From Agarivorans aestuarii (GTDB lineage Bacteria > Pseudomonadota > Gammaproteobacteria > Enterobacterales > Celerinatantimonadaceae): a DNA stretch of 64,000 bases. The notes under the pieces were generated by a model that saw only the letters and a list, made by a program, of their open reading frames with translations, made no database searches and was not told where the DNA came from. The position numbers were made by a program, and so were the translations under genes. Position 1 is the stretch's first letter; every line of letters begins with the position of its first letter. Of this stretch, positions 1,659-48,680 are shown one piece after another. Location: the NCBI RefSeq assembly GCF_019670125.1, contig NZ_AP023033.1:62001-126000 (forward strand), written 5' to 3'.

Positions 1659-3006
1659 TCATCAGGGCGGGAAACTACTGGTTGTCGATGACGACCCCAG
1701 CCTACTGCGCCTTATTAGCCTGCGATTACAATCTGCCGGATATGAAGTACGTGCTGTTGCTAGCGCTAAAGAAGCCTTGGCTGAATTGGAAAGTTATCCT
1801 GCTCAGCTGGTTATAAGCGATGTACGCATGGACGGTATGGACGGCCTCGCGCTGTTCAATGCGATAAAGCAGTTGTACCCTAGCTTGCCGGTAATGCTAC
1901 TCACTGCTCATGGTAATATTCCCGACGCCATTGCCGCCACTCAACAGGGTGTATTTGGTTATTTAACCAAACCCTTCGACAGCCAAGAATTGCTGGCTAA
2001 AGTTGCTGATGCTTTACAGCTTCAGCCAAATCTTGCTGAAGGTGAAAGCCAACAGCCGCAAGCGAGCTGGCGCAGCGATATTATTAGCCGTAGCCCAATA
2101 ATGGACGTGCTGATAAAGCAAATTCAGCAAGTTGCTCCCAGTGATGTAAACATCATGATTCAAGGTGAAAGTGGCTCAGGTAAAGAGTTGTTGGCTAAGG
2201 CTATTCACCAAGCCAGTCAGCGCCACCAAGGCCCATTTGTTGCGGTGAACTGTGCCGCTATTCCCGAAGGTTTGTTTGAGTCTGAGCTATTTGGTCATGC
2301 CAAAGGCGCTTTTAGTGGTGCGGCTAATGCTCACCCTGGCTTATTTCAAGCGGCCAATGGCGGAACCCTGTTTTTAGATGAAATTGCCGATACACCTTTA
2401 AGTGTGCAAGTTAAATTGCTGCGGGCACTGCAGGAGCGGGAAGTTCGTCCGGTGGGTTCAACCAAGAACATTCCAGTTGACGTGCGAATTGTTTCGGCTA
2501 CCCATCAAGATCTATATCAAGCAGTGCAGCAACAAGAGTTCAGGGAAGATCTTTATTATCGCCTTAATGTGGTGGAGCTGGGCTTGCCGCCATTAGCCAA
2601 GCGCCGAGAAGATATTCCTTTATTGGTGCATCATTTTAGCCAGCAAATTGCCGATCGCCAAGGCAGTGCCTTAAAAACCTATTCGCCAGAAGCTATGTCG
2701 AGTTTGGTGTCGGCCCGTTGGCCTGGCAATGTGAGACAGCTTATGAATGTGGTTGAGCAAACCAATGCTTTATCTACTGGGCCACTGATTCCAGCGCAAT
2801 TAGTTCAGCAAGCCTTACGTGAAAAGGCGAAGTTGGTGAGTTTTTCTCAGGCTAGAGATGAGTTTGAGCGAGGCTATTTAGCGCGCTTGTTACGCCTAAC
2901 TCAAGGTAACGTGAGTCAGGCAGCGCGCTTAGCGATGCGTAATCGCACCGAGTTTTATAAACTACTGGAGCGCCATCATTTGCGCCCCGAATCGTTCCGT
3001 GCTTAA
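1645..3006 (+). CDS. glrR: Sigma-54-dependent response regulator GlrR/QseF
   Basis: A 453-residue three-domain activator. The N-terminal receiver has the acidic pocket near D15-D17, phospho-acceptor D59, T87 and K109. The central AAA+ domain has Walker A (GESGSGKE), the sigma-54 contact loop, Walker B (GGTLFLDEIAD) and an arginine-finger region (YYRLNVVEL). A Fis-type helix-turn-helix closes the protein (GNVSQAARLAMRNRTEFYK). The sigma-54 contact loop reads GAFSGA (nt 2305-2322) instead of the near-invariant GAFTGA, a conservative T to S change. It should be activated by the upstream kinase and drive sigma-54 promoters; in enterobacteria the target is the small RNA gene glmY. Convergent with the downstream symporter, with stops overlapping by 4 bases. 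Confidence 0.9.
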   Translation: MNEINHQGGKLLVVDDDPSLLRLISLRLQSAGYEVRAVASAKEALAELESYPAQLVISDVRMDGMDGLALFNAIKQLYPSLPVMLLTAHGNIPDAIAATQQGVFGYLTKPFDSQELLAKVADALQLQPNLAEGESQQPQASWRSDIISRSPIMDVLIKQIQQVAPSDVNIMIQGESGSGKELLAKAIHQASQRHQGPFVAVNCAAIPEGLFESELFGHAKGAFSGAANAHPGLFQAANGGTLFLDEIADTPLSVQVKLLRALQEREVRPVGSTKNIPVDVRIVSATHQDLYQAVQQQEFREDLYYRLNVVELGLPPLAKRREDIPLLVHHFSQQIADRQGSALKTYSPEAMSSLVSARWPGNVRQLMNVVEQTNALSTGPLIPAQLVQQALREKAKLVSFSQARDEFERGYLARLLRLTQGNVSQAARLAMRNRTEFYKLLERHHLRPESFRA

Positions 3007-4226
3007 AGGTGCTTTTCGTTAAAACGATCAACAATCACGGCACAAGCTGCGTCACCAGTGATGTTTAACGAAGTACGGATCATGTCGAAGATACGGTCCA
3101 ATGCAAATAATAGCGGTAGGCCTTCAATAGGAATGCCTGCTGCTAGCAATACCGCTACCACCAAAAATGACGGCCCAGGTACACCAGCTTGACCAATGGC
3201 ACCTAAGGTTGCAGTGAAGATAATTGCTGCATAAGCCGCTAAGCCTAAATCTACTTGGAACATCTGCGCAAAGAACACCGCCACTAAACCGTAGTAAATA
3301 GCATTACCACTCATGTTAATGGTTGCCCCTAAAGGCAGTACAAAAGAGGCTGTCGCTTTAGATACTTTTAGTTCCTCTTCTACTACTTCCATGGTTACCG
3401 GCAGCGTCGCCATCGATGAAGAGGTAGACAGTGCAACCGCTTGAGGCTTTTTCATGGCGCTCATAAACTCGCGCACCGACATCTTAGAAAATAGCTTGAT
3501 GGTGAGCGGGTAGAATACAAAGCCGTAGATAAGAATCGCCGCCACGTAAACCGCAAATAGCTTGGCCACTAAACCCAACATAGCAAAACCAAAGGTGCCT
3601 ACCGATTCTGCCATAAGGCCAAATACGCCAAGCGGGGCAATTAGCATTACTATGTTAATCATCCAAATAAAGGCACGAATAATGGTGTCTAAGCCACTCA
3701 TAATTGGTGCTGTTTTGTCACTAGGTTGTTTAGACAGCGCAATACCAAAGAACAAACAAAACACCATGATCTGCAGAATATTTGCATCCATTAACGAGGC
3801 AAAAATGTTTTCTGGGATCATGCCGATAACGGTTTCCATTACACCTGGTACGCCACCTTTATCGGCGTATTCGTTAGAAAACATATCGCTAGCTTGGCTT
3901 AAGTCGAGGCCGGTTCCTGGTTGGAATAGAGAACCCATAACTAAGGCGAGAGCCACTGCAACCGCAGAGGTTGCCATGAAAAAGCCAAAGGTAGAAATGC
4001 CAATTTTACCTGCTGCAGGGCTATTACCAAGGTTGGCTGCACCAGAAATAATCGACACGCCAATGAGTGGAATAACCAGCATTTTAATTAAATGGATGAA
4101 GATCGCGCCAAGTGGGGCAAATATAGCAGCTTGCTCACCCATTACTGCGCCAACTACCGTACCAATAATCATCGCTATGACTACTTGTACGCCAATATTT
4201 TTATAGAGGGGTTGTGCTGTGTCCAT
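3003..4226 (-). CDS. Dicarboxylate/amino acid:cation symporter, glutamate/aspartate type
   Basis: An integral membrane transporter of the DAACS (GltP/DctA) family, about 407 residues. The serine-rich re-entrant hairpin (STSSSMATLP), the unwound-helix motif (NMSGNA) and the second hairpin (GQAGVPGPS) are visible. The last helix carries D-M-I-R-T-S-L-N, which keeps the Asp, Arg, Thr and Asn that bind acidic amino acids in glutamate transporters, so glutamate or aspartate is a likelier substrate than a C4-dicarboxylate. I start it at the ATG at 4226 because an AGGA box lies just upstream; the frame stays open to 4295 with no support. It stands alone on the minus strand. Confidence 0.88.
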   Translation of the reverse strand: MDTAQPLYKNIGVQVVIAMIIGTVVGAVMGEQAAIFAPLGAIFIHLIKMLVIPLIGVSIISGAANLGNSPAAGKIGISTFGFFMATSAVAVALALVMGSLFQPGTGLDLSQASDMFSNEYADKGGVPGVMETVIGMIPENIFASLMDANILQIMVFCLFFGIALSKQPSDKTAPIMSGLDTIIRAFIWMINIVMLIAPLGVFGLMAESVGTFGFAMLGLVAKLFAVYVAAILIYGFVFYPLTIKLFSKMSVREFMSAMKKPQAVALSTSSSMATLPVTMEVVEEELKVSKATASFVLPLGATINMSGNAIYYGLVAVFFAQMFQVDLGLAAYAAIIFTATLGAIGQAGVPGPSFLVVAVLLAAGIPIEGLPLLFALDRIFDMIRTSLNITGDAACAVIVDRFNEKHL

Positions 4227-39931: not shown

Positions 39932-40609
39932 ATGCGAACTGTTTGTTTGATCATGCTAACACTCTGTTGTGGTTATTTGAGTGCTGAGCCTAGTTTACGT
40001 ATCTCTACGATTGAAACTATCGCTGCTTTTCCAGAGGTGCGCGATACGGTAAGCGCTGCCTATGCAGAACTTGGTTATCAGGTGAACATCGTGCCTATGC
40101 CAGCCAAACGCTCCTTACATCACGCCAGAGACAATCATGACATTGATGCCGAATTGGCCAGAACCCGTTATGCCAGCAGTTACTTACCTAATCATATTTT
40201 GATCCCGGTGCCGGTAGGCCATATCACCATTGCTGCCTTTGTAAAAAAAGATAAGGCGCTAGTGAGCGATTGGCAAAGCTTACAGCAATACAGAGTAGCA
40301 GGGGTGCGGGGCCATTTGTTTCTAGAAGAAAAGATGCGTAAGCACAACAATACTCAGTTTTTTAATACCGCCCATCAAGCGCTAACTATGCTCGGCCGAG
40401 AGCGCGTTGATGTAGTGATATTGCCCCTGTCACTTGGTGAATACGTCATTAAAAAGTATTGGCATAAACAAATCACTGTGGTGAGTCCTGTGCTCGACTA
40501 CGTCCCGCTGTACCACTTCCTTCATAACAAACATCAAGATAAAGCTAAGCAGTTAGCCGAAGTATTACAAAAACTCACTACCGAGCCACTCGCTCAACAG
40601 CAAGAGTAA
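39932..40609 (+). CDS. Periplasmic solute-binding-like protein (225 aa)
   Basis: A 225-residue protein with a signal peptide (MRTVCLIMLTLCCGYLSAEP). The mature part has the two-lobed plan of small family-3 binding proteins: LRISTIE, AYAELGYQVNIVPMPAKRSL, a DAELARTRYA segment, then a second lobe (RVAGVRGHLFLE, RVDVVILPLSLGEYV). There is no permease or ATPase gene beside it, so it may serve signalling or act alone. AAGGAAAT precedes the ATG. Another protein of this kind lies at 55082-55891. Confidence 0.75.
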   Translation: MRTVCLIMLTLCCGYLSAEPSLRISTIETIAAFPEVRDTVSAAYAELGYQVNIVPMPAKRSLHHARDNHDIDAELARTRYASSYLPNHILIPVPVGHITIAAFVKKDKALVSDWQSLQQYRVAGVRGHLFLEEKMRKHNNTQFFNTAHQALTMLGRERVDVVILPLSLGEYVIKKYWHKQITVVSPVLDYVPLYHFLHNKHQDKAKQLAEVLQKLTTEPLAQQQE

Positions 40610-42127: not shown

Positions 42128-43450
42128 ATGTGGCGGTTAACCCGCAATAGTTCAATTTGGCGTTTAACTCGAATGTATACCGCACTACTGATGTTAGTAG
42201 TGGGGATTTTGCTGTGGGTGCTGTATCAGCTCAGCATTGGTCAATTAAGCCGTAGCCAAACCCAGCAGCTCGATCAATTGGTTCAACAGCAAACCCTATT
42301 GGCCGACGAGTTGAGCCCACAAGATTTCATCAATCAGTTTCTATTACAAGCTGAGCAGTCTCGCCAGTTTGTTCTGGCTTATGACGATGGAAGCAATACT
42401 TATGGACGCTTAGATACCATTCCTAAACGCTTGGCTCAGTGCCCTGCGCTAGCGCGCTTTCCGGTTTACAACTACAACAAAATTCGTCTTTATTCAGGCT
42501 GTGTGCAAACCTTGGATAGCGGCCGTTTGATGGTGGCGAGTGACGATGAAGCACTGTTTGATTTACGCGAGCAGTTTATTCAAGCGAGCATTATTGCACT
42601 GAGTTTGGCGCTAGCCTTAGGCCTAGTAACCGGCTGGTTTTTTTCGGCCCAAGTACTGCGACGGGTAAACGGCATTAATCAGATTGCTCAGCAAGTAGAA
42701 GCCGGGGAGCTAAGCGCCCGCGTCGCCTTAAGTCCGCGCAATGATGAGTTTGATCATATGGCGACTCACATTAACAAAATGCTGGCACAAGTAGAGCATT
42801 CTTTTGATGCCATTGCTGGGGTAACCGATGCGATTGCTCATGATCTCCGCACCCCTTTGGGCCGCTTGCGTTTGCGTTTAGAACAAGCCCTGCTCGATAG
42901 TGAGCAGCAAGCGGTGAGCCCGGAACAGCTGGCCAGTATGCTGCAGGAATTAGATGGAATATTGGCTACCTTTAGCTCCATGTTGGAGCTAACGCGCTTA
43001 GAGCATCAGCAGCAGTCTAAATTTAGCCAGTTACAACTGGAAAACATTGCCGAAGACGCCGTTGAATTAATTCAGCCACTTTGTGCAGAGCGCCAACAGG
43101 ATATTTCATTAAAGCTTGAGCAGCCATGTAAGCTACAAGGTGATGCCACTTTATTGTTCCGCGCCATTTATAACTTACTGGAAAATGCCAGCAAATACGC
43201 AGGCGAGCAGGCGCAAATTCAATTAACTATTAAGGCCAATGGCTTTGAGCTAAGGGACACTGGCCCCGGCATTCCCGAGGCAGAGTTGGATAAGGTATTC
43301 CAGCGTTTGTACCGTTTAGAAAGCAGCCGCAATAGCCCCGGTTATGGTCTTGGCTTGCCATTGGTTCGGGCGATTGTTCGACTACATGGTGGCGAGATAA
43401 AGTTGCTTAATCAACAAAGCGGTTTACAGGTAATTGTGGTGTTTAGCTAA
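42128..43450 (+). CDS. Sensor histidine kinase of the PepSY two-component set
   Basis: A 440-residue kinase: first membrane helix (about 15-36), a periplasmic sensor domain of about 115 residues, second membrane helix (about 157-176), HAMP, a dimerisation H-box (DAIAHDLRTPLGRLR), N-box NLLENASKY, and catalytic boxes DTGPGIP and GYGLGLPLV. It resembles QseC/PmrB-type kinases. I start at the ATG at 42128; no good ribosome site is visible and the frame stays open into the regulator gene. It probably phosphorylates the regulator encoded upstream. Confidence 0.9.
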   Translation: MWRLTRNSSIWRLTRMYTALLMLVVGILLWVLYQLSIGQLSRSQTQQLDQLVQQQTLLADELSPQDFINQFLLQAEQSRQFVLAYDDGSNTYGRLDTIPKRLAQCPALARFPVYNYNKIRLYSGCVQTLDSGRLMVASDDEALFDLREQFIQASIIALSLALALGLVTGWFFSAQVLRRVNGINQIAQQVEAGELSARVALSPRNDEFDHMATHINKMLAQVEHSFDAIAGVTDAIAHDLRTPLGRLRLRLEQALLDSEQQAVSPEQLASMLQELDGILATFSSMLELTRLEHQQQSKFSQLQLENIAEDAVELIQPLCAERQQDISLKLEQPCKLQGDATLLFRAIYNLLENASKYAGEQAQIQLTIKANGFELRDTGPGIPEAELDKVFQRLYRLESSRNSPGYGLGLPLVRAIVRLHGGEIKLLNQQSGLQVIVVFS

Positions 43451-43463
43451 GCGGGTAAAAAGT

Positions 43464-43495
43464 AAAAACCAGCCTTGCAAGCAAGGCTGGTTTTT
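43464..43495. terminator. Bidirectional terminator
   Basis: A nearly 15-bp stem (43464-43478 with 43481-43495), core CCAGCCTTGC, with A and T runs at its base. It serves the kinase gene and, on the other strand, any transcript carrying the small ORF at 43556-43639. Confidence 0.9.
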
Positions 43496-43555
43496 AAGGT
43501 CTTATCAATTCTGGCAACAGATAATACAGAGAAGGCCTGTGTTACAAAGAGCAAT

Positions 43556-43639
43556 TTATGAATGTACTTTTGCCTTCTTTAGCTTGTTAGCTTTTCGTGC
43601 AAAGTAGTTTACGTAATAAGTAAAATAAAACTGTTCCAT
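43556..43639 (-). CDS. Candidate 27-residue small protein
   Basis: A short reading frame on the minus strand: GGGGA is six bases before the ATG at 43639, and the stop is at 43556-43558. The peptide begins with an aromatic block (MEQFYFTYYVNYFARKA) and ends with a basic tail (NKLKKAKVHS), which suits a peripheral membrane or amphipathic peptide. An imperfect two-part hairpin lies upstream at 43693-43733 and the shared terminator at 43464-43495 lies downstream, giving a compact transcription unit. No family is recognised, and chance cannot be excluded at this length. Confidence 0.45.
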   Translation of the reverse strand: MEQFYFTYYVNYFARKANKLKKAKVHS

Positions 43640-43935
43640 AGTATTCCCCACCATCCAATGTTAATCACTGATGCGTCAGGCAAACGGCCTAATCGCACGC
43701 ACAACCGGCCTAAACCAAGGTTGCAAGGTGCGAGCAAATTGCTCTACATCTAAAACTTAACACTGCACAAATTTGTTTACAGAGTGAGCAACTAGAACTG
43801 TGACAAATATTGATAAGTTGTTGTAATTGTGTATTTAAGATGTGAGCGCTTCGAGCTTATGAAAATTACTTTTCCTTTTGCTAATTAAGCTATTAATTTA
43901 AAGAATGTTTAGTTTTCTGGATAAATGTCAGTTTA
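43640..43935. other. Spacer between the small ORF and the exporter operon, with a folded segment
   Basis: No larger gene. Positions 43693-43733 can fold: TCGCAC (43693-43698) with 43728-43733, then CAACC (43702-43706) with 43719-43723, around a 12-base loop. This would lie in the 5' leader of the 27-residue ORF. The octamer CGGCCTAA also occurs twice here as a short direct repeat. Confidence 0.45.
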
Positions 43936-45108
43936 TCAAAGTAGCTTTTCCACCTTATTGAGAGATGGAGTCGCTTTCGCTTTTTGCATATGGAGTAAGG
44001 CCAGTGCTAAGCAGCTAAAAGTCATAGCGAGCAGCCATAGATGAGTAAAGTGAGCTTGTATTTCACTAAAGCTAGCGCCCATTTGGTTGATCTTTAACAT
44101 GGCTAAGACCATGGGTTTGGCCGGTATTAGGTCGGCCAAAATATTAATGGCTGGTGGAATAGAGCTCAGCGGCCAGATAAAACCACACACAAACACGGTC
44201 GGTAATGAAGTCATTAAACCAACAATGGTAGCGTAATCGCGTTTAGGTAATAACACCGCTATGCACTGGGCTAAGCCGGCAGTCGCGATTAAAAAGGGTA
44301 GCAGCAAATGGCATATCTGAGAAACACTCGCCCAGTGATGCACTCCATAATAATTAAGCACTACGCCAAAATAAAAGCTGCTCATTACACTGTACATAAC
44401 AGCAAAAATCACAACACGGCATAGCACTAGCTGCCACGGGGCAGCATAGCGCAAGAGCTTAGCTTGTGAGCCCGATGCTGCCGGCGCAGCGTGTAAACCG
44501 ACAGCAATAAGCAGCGTTTGGTGCAAAATCACCACAAATACTGCCGGAATAACATAGTCCAAGTAACCCTGGTGGGCGTTAAAGGCCGCATTAGCACTTA
44601 GCTGGATTGGCGAATGCAAGGTGCTAGCAAGTGCTAGCGGGATGCCATCGGCTACCATTTTTGCTACTTTTACTTGGGCGGCTAAGGTACCAGAGGTGCT
44701 GGCTAAACCTTGCACAATAGTGCCATAAACCAAAAAGTATGAGGCGTCTCCAGCGTAAGACAGAGTAGGCGATCTACCCATTAATACATCGCGATAAAAA
44801 TGTTCGGGGATAACTAACAAACCACCCACTTTTCTTTCGATTAACTGCTGTTGAGCTTGCTCGATACTGGCGACTTGGCTGGTCACTTGCAATAAGGGGC
44901 TAGCGTCGACCATGCGAATCAATTGCCGACTTAGTTGACTGCCATCGGCATTAATCACTGCGATGGGTTGCTGAAGTGGCGTTTGGTTTAAATAAGGTTG
45001 GGGGTACAAAAATGCGTAAAGCAGCAACCCGCCAAACACCGTTAATAGCAGGGCGCGATTGCCCATTATTCGGCGAAGTTCCAAGCGCATGACTAGGGCT
45101 GTTTTCAT
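43936..45108 (-). CDS. ABC-2-type permease (second of pair)
   Basis: A 390-residue membrane protein of the ABC-2/YhhJ type: one N-terminal membrane helix (about 16-36), a large periplasmic domain (about 40-180, PIAVINADGSQLSRQLIR), and about five C-terminal membrane helices. It overlaps the preceding permease gene by 4 bases (ATGA). The pair resembles the YbhS/YbhR and YhhJ exporters, which need an ATPase, but no ATPase gene is in this operon. Last gene of the operon. Confidence 0.85.
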   Translation of the reverse strand: MKTALVMRLELRRIMGNRALLLTVFGGLLLYAFLYPQPYLNQTPLQQPIAVINADGSQLSRQLIRMVDASPLLQVTSQVASIEQAQQQLIERKVGGLLVIPEHFYRDVLMGRSPTLSYAGDASYFLVYGTIVQGLASTSGTLAAQVKVAKMVADGIPLALASTLHSPIQLSANAAFNAHQGYLDYVIPAVFVVILHQTLLIAVGLHAAPAASGSQAKLLRYAAPWQLVLCRVVIFAVMYSVMSSFYFGVVLNYYGVHHWASVSQICHLLLPFLIATAGLAQCIAVLLPKRDYATIVGLMTSLPTVFVCGFIWPLSSIPPAINILADLIPAKPMVLAMLKINQMGASFSEIQAHFTHLWLLAMTFSCLALALLHMQKAKATPSLNKVEKLL

Positions 45109-46286
45109 GTGTTATGCCCTAGTTGTGCTGGCTTAGCGAAGCGGATTTTAACTAGCAATGCTGCGCTAATAAAGGCAAGCCCAAATACCAATAAGGCTGA
45201 TAAGTTGGGCAATGACTGCGCTATGCCTGCTCCATAGTTAGCTTGGGTTATTTGTACTTCAATGTAATGGGTTATTGGGATGAGTTGGCGCCAAAATTGA
45301 GCAAACCAAGGCATCTCACTCACTGGGAAGGTCACTCCCATAAAGGCAAAGCTGGGTGCGGTAAGTGCTCCAGCAAAACTGAGTGCTCGGGCGACGTCTT
45401 GAAACAGCAGCATAAAGATTAATGCTATCGCTTGTGAAGCTAGCACGCACAGCAGCAAGGCTAGCAGTAATACACTCCAAGAACCTCGCATTGGCCAGTC
45501 AAAGCCGTGGAACATCAGCGTACATAGCAGTATGCCTTGCAGCCATAATAAGCCTCCAAAAAAGCTGAGTTTTACCATCAATTTTTGCCATGCTTGGCTT
45601 GCTAACCAGTCTTTAAAGCTATTGTTTTTTAGCTCTGCACCTAGCGCCAAGATCATTACCGCCATGATCAAAATTTGCCAAAAAGCCGGTAAGGCAGCAG
45701 ACACAATAAACTGGGCGTAGTTGCTATTTCCGTTATATAAAGCGCTGATTTGATTGCGAATAGGGACCGCATCGCCCAAGGCTTGTAAGGTTTGGGTATT
45801 GCCATGGCTAAGCGCTTTTGCCACCGCAACTTTGGCACTAAAAGTACCGTGAGCTTGCTGCAGTGCAGAGTTGATTTGCTTGCCAATCACCATGAATTGG
45901 CTGTTGTAGTAGGCTGCAACCGTAGGTGTTTGTGCCAGCTTAGTGTGCTTTTCTAGATCGGCAGGAATAATCACTAGCGCAGACACATCGCCTGTACGTA
46001 GCAGCGATCGAGCTTGCGGTTCACTATAAACGCTGCGCACTTGCAGTGTTGGGCTGGCGTCATAGTGGCCAATTAGGCTACGCGATAACTGGCTGTGGTC
46101 ATGGTCGACCACCGCAATCGGTAGCTCGCGGGTTAAGCCCGACGAAAATACCCACCACACGGCTAAAAAGGCCAGCAGTGGCAACCAAGTGAGCATAGCC
46201 ATTAACCAAGCGTTATCGCGCAGTAGTAAGCACTGTTGCATAAACAGTTGCCTTAAGCCGAGCGACGGTTCGCGGGTGGCATTCAT
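45105..46286 (-). CDS. ABC-2-type permease (first of pair)
   Basis: A protein of about 393 residues, homologous in plan to the other permease: N-terminal helix (LTWLPLLAFLAVWWVF), periplasmic domain (LPIAVVDHDHSQLSRSLIGHYDASPTLQV, read in parts) and five to six C-terminal helices. I start at the ATG at 46286, one base after the stop of the HlyD gene; a TTG at 46310 would overlap that gene. The ribosome site is poor, so coupling with the previous gene is likely. Confidence 0.83.
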   Translation of the reverse strand: MNATREPSLGLRQLFMQQCLLLRDNAWLMAMLTWLPLLAFLAVWWVFSSGLTRELPIAVVDHDHSQLSRSLIGHYDASPTLQVRSVYSEPQARSLLRTGDVSALVIIPADLEKHTKLAQTPTVAAYYNSQFMVIGKQINSALQQAHGTFSAKVAVAKALSHGNTQTLQALGDAVPIRNQISALYNGNSNYAQFIVSAALPAFWQILIMAVMILALGAELKNNSFKDWLASQAWQKLMVKLSFFGGLLWLQGILLCTLMFHGFDWPMRGSWSVLLLALLLCVLASQAIALIFMLLFQDVARALSFAGALTAPSFAFMGVTFPVSEMPWFAQFWRQLIPITHYIEVQITQANYGAGIAQSLPNLSALLVFGLAFISAALLVKIRFAKPAQLGHNT

Positions 46287-46287
46287 T

Positions 46288-47274
46288 TTAAGGCTGCTCA
46301 AGCTCAACAATCGCGCTCATGCCTACACGTAATTGCTCAATTTGTTGCAAAGGGCGTGCTTCTACTTCAAAGGTGCGTAAATCAAAGCCAGTGCGGCTAT
46401 CGGTGGCGCGCCAAGTGGCAAAATCGCCCATCACTGCCACATGGGCTACTTCAAACTTAAAGCTTTGATTATCTAGCGCAGGCAGCTTGGCACTAAACTG
46501 CTGCCCTTTTTGAAATTGGCTTAGTTGGTCTTCACGAACATGCAATACCAACCAGGCATCTTGCATATCAATAATCGACACCACTGGGAAGCCGGTGGGA
46601 GCCAGTTCACCGCTTTGTAACAGTAGTTGGCTTACCTCGCCCGAGTGCCAGCTTGTCACTAAGGTGTCGCTGGTAAATGCTTCAACTTCTGCCACTACGC
46701 CAGCTGCCGCGCGGGCCTGTTCAGAGGCTGCACGTTTGGTTTCATCTCGTGCACCTTCTTTGGCCAGTTGATACATTTGTGATGCAGCGTTTTCGGTGTA
46801 ACGGGCTGCTTGCCATTGGGTATAGGCTTCGTCGCGTTTTTGTTCGGCTACAACGCCATCTTTATACAGATTATCCACTCGCTGATAGGTCTTTTCGGCT
46901 AAGTTGGCGGCGGCTAGGGCTTTTTGCCATTGGTCTTTGGCGGCGGCAATTTCTTGCGTTCGGGCACCATTTTCGGCTTGTTCTGCCATGGCGGATGCCG
47001 CTTGTTGACCGGCTTTGGCTTGCTCTAATTTGGCATCTAATTCAGGGCTAGTGATGGAAAAGATTAGTTGCCCAGGCTCTACTTGGTCGCCTTTTCTCAC
47101 TAATACCTGGTCGATCCGCCCAGCTACTTTGGATGAAATGTTGTATTGCTGAGCCTCTATCTGGCCTTGCAATGTGTAAGGCTGAGGCTGGTAAGCTTGC
47201 CAAAATGAATAGCCAACCCAAGCAATAATCGCCAGCAAGGGCAAAATGGGTAACACGGCAGAAAATTTACGCAT
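46288..47274 (-). CDS. HlyD/membrane-fusion protein of the exporter
   Basis: A 328-residue adaptor: an N-terminal membrane anchor (about 8-26), a biotinyl-lipoyl-like half (ISSKVAGRIDQVLVRKGDQVEPGQ), a long alanine-rich coiled-coil hairpin (about 75-200) and a beta-barrel C-terminal part. It resembles YbhG/YhiI. It links the inner-membrane permeases to the TolC-type channel encoded next to it. AGGG precedes the ATG; 8 bases separate it from the TolC-like gene. Confidence 0.9.
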   Translation of the reverse strand: MRKFSAVLPILPLLAIIAWVGYSFWQAYQPQPYTLQGQIEAQQYNISSKVAGRIDQVLVRKGDQVEPGQLIFSITSPELDAKLEQAKAGQQAASAMAEQAENGARTQEIAAAKDQWQKALAAANLAEKTYQRVDNLYKDGVVAEQKRDEAYTQWQAARYTENAASQMYQLAKEGARDETKRAASEQARAAAGVVAEVEAFTSDTLVTSWHSGEVSQLLLQSGELAPTGFPVVSIIDMQDAWLVLHVREDQLSQFQKGQQFSAKLPALDNQSFKFEVAHVAVMGDFATWRATDSRTGFDLRTFEVEARPLQQIEQLRVGMSAIVELEQP

Positions 47275-47282
47275 AATAGACC

Positions 47283-48680
47283 CTAGTTAAATCGGTAGTA
47301 TTGGGAAAAATTAGCCATTTCACCACTTAAGGCGGTGAGTTTAGCCAGTGCGATTACATGGCTATACGCAGCAGATTGGCGCTGAGTTTTTACGCTAGCT
47401 TGGTACATCTCGGCATCCACAACATCTAAAGAGGTTGCCAAACCTTGGCTAAAAGCCTTAAGTCGAATACGTAAATTCTCTTTGGCCAACGCAAGGGTAG
47501 ATTCTAATCCTTGATATTCTTCTAAGGCTAACTCGGCTTCTCGGTAGGTTTTTTCTACCAGCAATCCTAAATCTCGCTCGGCTTGGGCGCGTATATAAGA
47601 GATTTGCACCACCGTGCTATTGGCTGCATTAACTTTGCCGGAGCGGCCAGAGTTATCAATAATTGGCACCGACACACCAACGCCCACCATCCAGTCGGGC
47701 GCGTATTTAGCGGCTAAGCTGTCGCCTTTGTAGATGTCATAGTTACCAAACATGTATACCTCTGGCATGTAACCGCCTTTGGCTATGGTCACCATCTTTT
47801 TAGCTTGTTCTGATTTACTGTCCAATATCGCTAAACCCGGATAACTGTTTAGGGTTTGCGACATATAGCTTTCTAGCTCGGGGATGTCTGCTTGAGTGAA
47901 TAAGCTAGTAGTGGGTTGGATAGCCTGTTGGGCATGCAGCAATTCTTTTAAGGCTAACTGGGCAATTTCATAATTTCGCAGGGCTTTTCTGGTATCAACT
48001 TTGGCCTTGTCGTAAGAGGCATCTGCTTGCAATCGTTCTACAAAGGCGATTTGTCCTTGCTGCTCTAGTTTTACCGCATTACGTTGATGTTTCTTAAGCC
48101 CATCTTCCACCTCTTTATAGGTTTCTGCTACTTGTGCAGCCAGCACCACCCCAAAGTAAACTTTGGCGAGGTCTTCAAATTTAGCCTGCTGCTGCATAGC
48201 GAGTACTTTACCAGCTTCAATATTTTGCTCACGTGCGATATCGATGGCAGCGCCACGGCGGCCACCTGTATACAGGGGCCAAATTGCCCGAATGGAGCTA
48301 GTGGTAATGTCTTGCTCAGTGAAGTTAGTTACCGTTGGTAAGTTTAAAAGCGGCGCTAAAATTTGTCCTAGCGCGGGGTCTAAGCCACTTAAATCGAGTG
48401 ATGCCAAAGGCTCTAAGTCTTTTAAATCAAGCGAAACTGGTTTTTCTAAACGGGTGTAATTACCGGTTAAATCTATTTTGGGGTAGTAGAGATCTTTTGC
48501 AGCGTCGCGCAGTGCTTCGCTGCGGGCTACGCTTTCTTTGTTGGCTGCTAGGCTTTGGTTTTTCTCTAGTACTTCTTGCCAAGCTTGTTCAAAGCTAATG
48601 GCATTAGCCGTTACTGGCTGCAATAGGCTAAGCAAACAGCTCAGGCTAGCTACCTTTAAACTCCAAAAGTGTCTTATCAC
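47283..48680 (-). CDS. TolC-family outer-membrane efflux channel
   Basis: A 465-residue outer-membrane protein with a signal peptide (LSCLLSLLQPVTANA) and the two repeated helix-strand halves of the TolC family (SFEQAWQEVLEKNQSLAANKE; RAIWPLYTGGRRGAAIDIA; LIVEK-like C-terminal helices). It is the first gene of the minus-strand exporter operon. The start is a GTG at 48680 with AAGGA about ten bases upstream. It provides the exit duct for the HlyD/permease complex. Confidence 0.88.
   Translation of the reverse strand: MIRHFWSLKVASLSCLLSLLQPVTANAISFEQAWQEVLEKNQSLAANKESVARSEALRDAAKDLYYPKIDLTGNYTRLEKPVSLDLKDLEPLASLDLSGLDPALGQILAPLLNLPTVTNFTEQDITTSSIRAIWPLYTGGRRGAAIDIAREQNIEAGKVLAMQQQAKFEDLAKVYFGVVLAAQVAETYKEVEDGLKKHQRNAVKLEQQGQIAFVERLQADASYDKAKVDTRKALRNYEIAQLALKELLHAQQAIQPTTSLFTQADIPELESYMSQTLNSYPGLAILDSKSEQAKKMVTIAKGGYMPEVYMFGNYDIYKGDSLAAKYAPDWMVGVGVSVPIIDNSGRSGKVNAANSTVVQISYIRAQAERDLGLLVEKTYREAELALEEYQGLESTLALAKENLRIRLKAFSQGLATSLDVVDAEMYQASVKTQRQSAAYSHVIALAKLTALSGEMANFSQYYRFN

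Follow-up and report, generated by a model that had tools for sequence, protein, structure and literature searches.

The aapA peptides are short and cationic, hok has an overlapping second reading frame, and AzuCR of E. coli specifies a 28-residue cationic small protein, like the product described below in size and charge. According to one report (PMC6733600), the primary transcript of aapA in Helicobacter pylori is rendered inert by a long-distance interaction between its 5′ and 3′ ends, with transient hairpins forming during transcription, and hok mRNA passes through a metastable 5′ hairpin on its way to an inert form. A second report (PMC8672173) describes VcdRP of Vibrio cholerae as a 306-nt RNA whose 29-residue ORF begins at nt 104.

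We analyzed a small-protein locus in a 64,000-nucleotide stretch of the Agarivorans aestuarii genome (the window; the genome is a single contig of 4,687,452 bases). The locus resembles aapA/IsoA in its predicted interaction between the 5′ and 3′ ends, in its putative transient hairpin and in the nucleotide constraint on early codons (PMC6733600). It differs in that the 3′ arm lies directly after the stop codon and itself contains no anti-Shine-Dalgarno sequence, in that the protein matches no family searched, and in that promoter and terminator scans found no antisense RNA. The likeness to hok/Sok would be the metastable 5′ hairpin; here the differences are that the Agarivorans gene matches no Pfam Hok model and that no antisense RNA was found for it. 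VcdRP is close in size, ORF position, ORF length and the presence of a terminator (PMC8672173), whereas in Agarivorans genus-wide conservation covers the 5′ leader together with the ORF and does not extend to the 3′ part, with no convincing match of either protein or leader elsewhere in 394 genomes of the order. By analogy, the layout may be read as a closable small-protein mRNA, like those of type I toxins; we do not claim membership of that class for the gene. The features of the locus are collected in Table 1.

Table 1. Features of the small-protein locus, in window coordinates.
Feature	Position	Strand	Basis
Conserved upstream block, with −10-like TAAGTT at 43759-43754	43748..43845	−	Conservation
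Structured leader, 108 nt; first base is the putative transcript start	43640..43747	−	Putative, from conservation edge and complementarity
5′ arm of long-range pairing, core AGAGCAA at 43745-43739	43735..43745	−	Folding and complementarity
Competing local 5′ hairpin, GAGC-loop-GCUC	43732..43744	−	Sequence and folding probabilities
Leader hairpin, helix 3	43700..43725	−	A-U to G-C double change
Leader hairpin, helix 4	43671..43698	−	C-G to U-A double change
Leader hairpin, helix 5	43656..43670	−	All five pairs invariant
Shine-Dalgarno-like GGTGGGG	43646..43652	−	GGUG could pair with CACC at 43730-43727
27-residue ORF and stop codon, MEQFYFTYYVNYFARKANKLKKAKVHS (ATG at 43639, stop ending at 43556)	43556..43639	−	6/7 genus genomes, third-position bias
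3′ arm of long-range pairing, TTGCTCT at 43554-43548	43548..43555	−	Invariant in 6/6
Intrinsic terminator, 15 pairs, possibly shared with convergent kinase gene	43463..43496	−	Terminator scans

Coding evidence, distribution and neighborhood of the ORF

The 27-residue ORF proposed in the initial annotation was found in 6 of the 7 Agarivorans genomes, at 89-100% identity. The six copies (five distinct DNA sequences) align without indels or stops within the ORF; of its 84 columns, 20 are variable, and third positions account for 14 of these. Pairwise pN/pS was 0.00-0.20 in 13 of 15 pairs and is undefined in the other two, one identical (G000-G004) and one with a single nonsynonymous and no synonymous difference (G001-G003). 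When the observed changes were randomly re-placed on matching bases, none of 5,000 runs altered as few residues. The ORF is under protein-level purifying selection, and the conservation with synonymous change that had been proposed as a check on relatives is what we observe. The small-protein gene is therefore real, and it belongs to none of the families searched.

An in-frame ATG further upstream (43654), which would give a 32-residue reading, is kept in G000, G004 and G002 and absent in G001, G003 and G005; because their G-run is one base shorter, these three genomes have no ATG in frame upstream of MEQ. The relatives thereby fix the predicted start at the ATG of the 27-residue reading. The annotated ribosome site is present six bases ahead of this ATG, in a G-rich form rather than the canonical AGGAGG. 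A start-codon hairpin is predicted, and is weak. Among the six genomes, 27/27 columns of codons 1-9 are invariant, as are 35/54 columns of codons 10-27. No codon among codons 2-9 is variable (0/8), compared with 14/18 among codons 10-27 (Fisher p = 0.0003). As codons 2-9 show no change at all while later codons vary, something besides the protein must constrain them, and they carry an additional constraint at the nucleotide level.

Of the 27 residues of the protein, seven are aromatic, six are K or R and one is acidic. Its hydrophobic moment is above average (the observed value is reached by 62/2,000 shuffles), and AlphaFold, run on the single sequence of the 32-residue reading, returned one helix (mean pLDDT 84.9, pTM 0.42), which we regard as weak evidence. 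The protein is cationic and aromatic-rich, and probably helical. No family was found for it in Pfam or NCBIfam (E up to 10) or in PADLOC (E up to 1), and it had no match in PHROGs or among PDB sequences at the cut-offs used. What the peptide does is a guess; most likely it would be active at the membrane, or else assist some larger protein as its small partner.

A single-peptide search of 99 relatives returned 13 genomes at E up to 1, comprising the six of the genus and seven weak matches (L007-L013, E 0.07-0.54). A protein profile run on 394 genomes of the order returned 10 at E up to 0.02, the six of the genus and four others (L065-L068). We dismissed these four as homologues, as three of them contain an internal stop and L065, as we read it, belongs to a separate gene read in another frame; weak matches within the family (L015, L016, L017) were likewise dismissed, and among the 12 family genomes no convincing protein match came from outside the genus. 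Plasmid and phage records contained no match to the protein at E up to 1.

The leader has the same distribution. One leader model (R1) found six true copies in the 12 family genomes at E 2.3e−42 or better, the next-best match having E 0.37, and another (R2) returned six matches in the 394 genomes of the order, all in the genus, under stricter filters that lose some weak matches. Each of the six genomes has one strong match to the R1 and R2 models. As a sequence pattern allowing up to 3 mismatches, the leader occurs within the family only in the six ORF-bearing genomes; it is absent from viral contigs, and a scan of genome contigs returned one locus (L014), which we take to be the G005 copy again. 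By these searches, the protein and its leader are found convincingly only in Agarivorans, where the gene appears in single copy. Titles and abstract openings on Agarivorans small RNAs or toxin-antitoxin systems included nothing on this locus, and those on structured leaders of small proteins included only unrelated work.

In all six genomes (6/6), the ORF lies between a same-strand ABC permease, whose stop is at 43936, and a convergent histidine kinase, which ends at 43450, beyond the terminator. The upstream efflux cluster encodes an outer-membrane efflux protein (OEP), an HlyD-like adaptor and two ABC-2 permeases; the family search for its genes covered the cluster itself only. Among the flanking ORFs listed for this cluster (43936-48680) there is no separate ATP-binding protein. 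The facing cluster encodes a PepSY protein, an OmpR-type regulator and the kinase. A leader-peptide attenuator would have a regulated gene downstream on the same strand, and none is present, the next gene being the convergent kinase.

In the seventh genome (G006) the ORF is missing, and no kinase was found at E up to 1e−30; the permease is kept and is directly faced by a homologue of the gene at 39932-40609 (49% identity, 209 residues). At this locus (L040), the two facing ORFs, at 1537-2238 and 2222-3391, share 17 bases and leave nothing between them; the segment holding PepSY, regulator, kinase and small ORF is thus absent at that place. Loss of the ORF and the kinase in this one species is one event. 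A further genome (G007) has a kinase homologue elsewhere, preceded, as judged by eye, by PepSY-like and regulator ORFs, with no such small ORF beside it, and a strict functional link between the ORF and the two-component system was rejected on this ground.

Structured leader and transcript boundaries

The leader is invariant in 83 of 106 gap-free columns across the six genomes, compared with 16 of 64 such columns in alignment columns 141-240, which precede the upstream block. Its consensus folds into three hairpins with a possible fourth at the 5′ end, so that the two-part hairpin annotated upstream of the ORF stands as a structured leader and falls short of its full extent. The alifold energy was −46.3, compared with −32.9 (sd 3.8) for shuffled alignments, of which 1/300 was as good; the alignment-level energy of the 200-nt unit was also reached by 1/300 column shuffles. 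The consensus fold pairs 97.7% of cells, versus 34-42% in slid controls; shuffling partners among sequences gave 96.8% on average. The covariation score was reached by 5/500 shuffles. Double changes occur in only 2 of 43 pairs, a number reached by 227/500 shuffles, and 419/500 reached the number of pair types; because such counts are commonly reached, support from covariation is modest.

Folded as a single sequence, the window leader is not significantly stable (z −1.11, 32/200 shuffles as good), and the segment 43630-43760 gave z −1.54 (12/200). Leader z-scores were mild in 5/6 genomes (−1.11 to −1.61) and −3.60 in G002; those of the 200-nt unit ranged from −1.79 to −3.37. Rfam returned no match at gathering score in the whole window. 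At E up to 10 there were 7 matches, each scoring well under its gathering threshold. All of them lie outside the leader, including the best (25.8 bits against a gathering score of 55).

The block upstream of the leader is probably operator and promoter DNA. In it, 45 of 92 gap-free columns are invariant (alignment columns 241-340), and it gave no signal of RNA structure (86/300 shuffles as good), which is how operator DNA should behave. Its match to a sigma-70 promoter is weak: the proposed promoter ranks in the top six scores for 1/6 genomes, scores below zero in G001 and is not listed by the consensus promoter scan, so read-through from the ABC operon has to be allowed for. A 34-base pattern from the block, with up to 3 mismatches (a strict search), matched only this site in the genome. 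The block also contains repeated ACA/CAA elements spaced ~9-12 bases apart, like tandem regulator sites. No CRP, IHF or OmpR-like site fitted all six genomes when consensus sequences were compared by eye.

The predicted transcript is 284 nt to the T-run of the terminator, with the ORF from nt 109. This agrees with the initial view of a compact unit of structured leader, ORF and terminator, and the unit ends beside the convergent kinase gene. The terminator itself lies where it had been placed, although scans list it on the minus strand only and not as bidirectional; its use on the plus strand by the kinase gene is plausible because the right arm is T-rich. Relatives have a hairpin with a changed stem at this position. 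Between the stop codon and the terminator, TTGCTCT is the only invariant part. Beyond it, 39 nt are missing in G005 and the sequence diverges in G002. In alignment columns 561-600, the five genomes other than G005 share 9 of 29 gap-free columns, and the four closest genomes share 32 of 37.

Predicted pairing of the 5′ end with the post-stop bases

The putative 5′ end, AGAGCAA, is complementary to TTGCTCT, which lies directly after the stop codon or one base past it. This complementarity is a new finding of the present analysis, absent from the initial annotation. The longest Watson-Crick helix between the 5′ end and the post-stop bases has 7-10 bp in 6/6 genomes, and the ten-pair helix of G000 takes in two bases of the stop codon. 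When the 3′ stretch was shuffled 5,000 times, the observed helix length was reached 0 times for G000, 59 for G004, 4 for G002, 57 for G001, 43 for G003 and 13 for G005. Elsewhere on the plus strand of the window, 21 of 9,083 stretches reached 9 bp of complementarity.

In full-length transcripts, the predicted probability of the long-range pairing was 0.92-0.99 in 5/6 genomes and 0.26 in G004. The competing local 5′ hairpin had a probability of 0.89-0.90 when the RNA ended before the distal arm and of 0.42-0.92 when the arm was masked in the full-length RNA. As the seven core pairs never vary, the core offers no covariation. The UUGCUC sequence is present as a direct repeat at both places in 4/6 genomes, the 5′ copy differing in G002 and G005.

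The predicted unpaired probability of the ribosome site was 0.05-0.31 in every form, and cutting off the post-stop arm raised its accessibility by at most 0.10 (in G004, from 0.20 to 0.30). Pairing of its GGUG with the upstream CACC is weak (probability 0.04-0.39). Whether or not the long-range pairing forms, access to the ribosome site is poor, so the model gives closure no large role in translation. We treat closure of the mRNA as a well-founded prediction, and any effect of it on translation as an inference.

Possible modes of control

We consider it probable that RNA folding regulates synthesis of the small protein. We place at about 0.5 the probability that this is an Agarivorans-specific small-protein gene with its own mRNA of ~285 nt, whose translation is controlled by folding or closure of that RNA; among the mechanisms considered, closed-mRNA control ranks first, with roughly even odds. 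On this mechanism, the nascent 5′ end would fold first into the small local hairpin. The post-stop bases, once transcribed, would displace that hairpin and close the mRNA into a ring, which would keep the ribosome site in poorly accessible structure. A trigger would then open the ring; candidates are trimming of the 3′ end, binding of a ligand or RNA, and a ribosome positioned on the stop codon. The conserved DNA upstream is probably the target of a dedicated regulator. A long shot among these possibilities is a self-opening switch, in which a ribosome at the stop codon covers the post-stop arm and frees the 5′ end, so that the message stays open.

The predicted folds can also be accommodated by a riboswitch, a thermometer or a protein-bound leader that controls an ordinary small protein, in which case the post-stop complementarity would merely belong to a stable fold or reflect a protein-binding motif that is repeated. 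The three conserved hairpins, the UUGCUC repeat and a ribosome site masked in all predicted forms would fit such an element, which we consider somewhat unlikely; the lack of any Rfam match in the window at gathering score, and in the leader even below it, counts against it. A type I toxin-antitoxin system, with a membrane toxin peptide, an mRNA made inert by 5′-3′ closure and a repressing cis-antisense RNA from the ORF or leader, would account for the aapA-like layout, and a short ORF for a small peptide under purifying selection is indeed present. The plus strand offers a possible −10 element for an antisense RNA: TAAAAT (43621-43626), invariant and opposite codons 5-7, falls among the top six antisense scores in 3/6 genomes. 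However, the −35 of this candidate is poor and not conserved, scans list no plus-strand terminator for it, and the peptide, half polar and basic with no hydrophobic span, matches no known toxin family in the libraries named above, Pfam included. The single copy at a fixed chromosomal place, with no plasmid or phage counterpart, points the same way, and this explanation is unlikely.

Doubtful as well is the dual-function RNA raised in the initial annotation, a transcript like VcdRP or AzuCR that encodes a peptide and also base-pairs with target mRNAs. The conserved small ORF and the size and layout of the unit suit it, the constraint on the first codons could mark a pairing site, and the four closest genomes have rather similar 3′ UTRs. 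Yet no 3′ segment beyond TTGCTCT that could serve for pairing is conserved genus-wide, given the divergence and the G005 deletion described above, and this speaks against the annotated role, as does the want of a convincing leader or protein match outside the genus among the 394 genomes of the order. It is improbable, finally, that the ORF is the last cistron of the efflux operon, reached by read-through, with the leader as an intercistronic control element. It would be allowed by the weak promoter, by the lack of any listed terminator from the permease stop to the ORF, and by a strand and gene order that are constant in 6/6 genomes, but the upstream block behaves as operator DNA would, giving no RNA structure signal, and G006 has the permease and no ORF. 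Closed-mRNA control thus stays our preferred reading.

From this locus come a protein family and an RNA motif that the libraries searched do not contain, together with a testable prediction of the exact seven bases that would close the mRNA. If the self-opening switch were true, it would give all-or-none expression of a genus-specific, possibly membrane-active small protein without an antisense RNA. If closure controls translation without an antisense partner, the closed-mRNA layout of type I toxins would serve other small proteins too.
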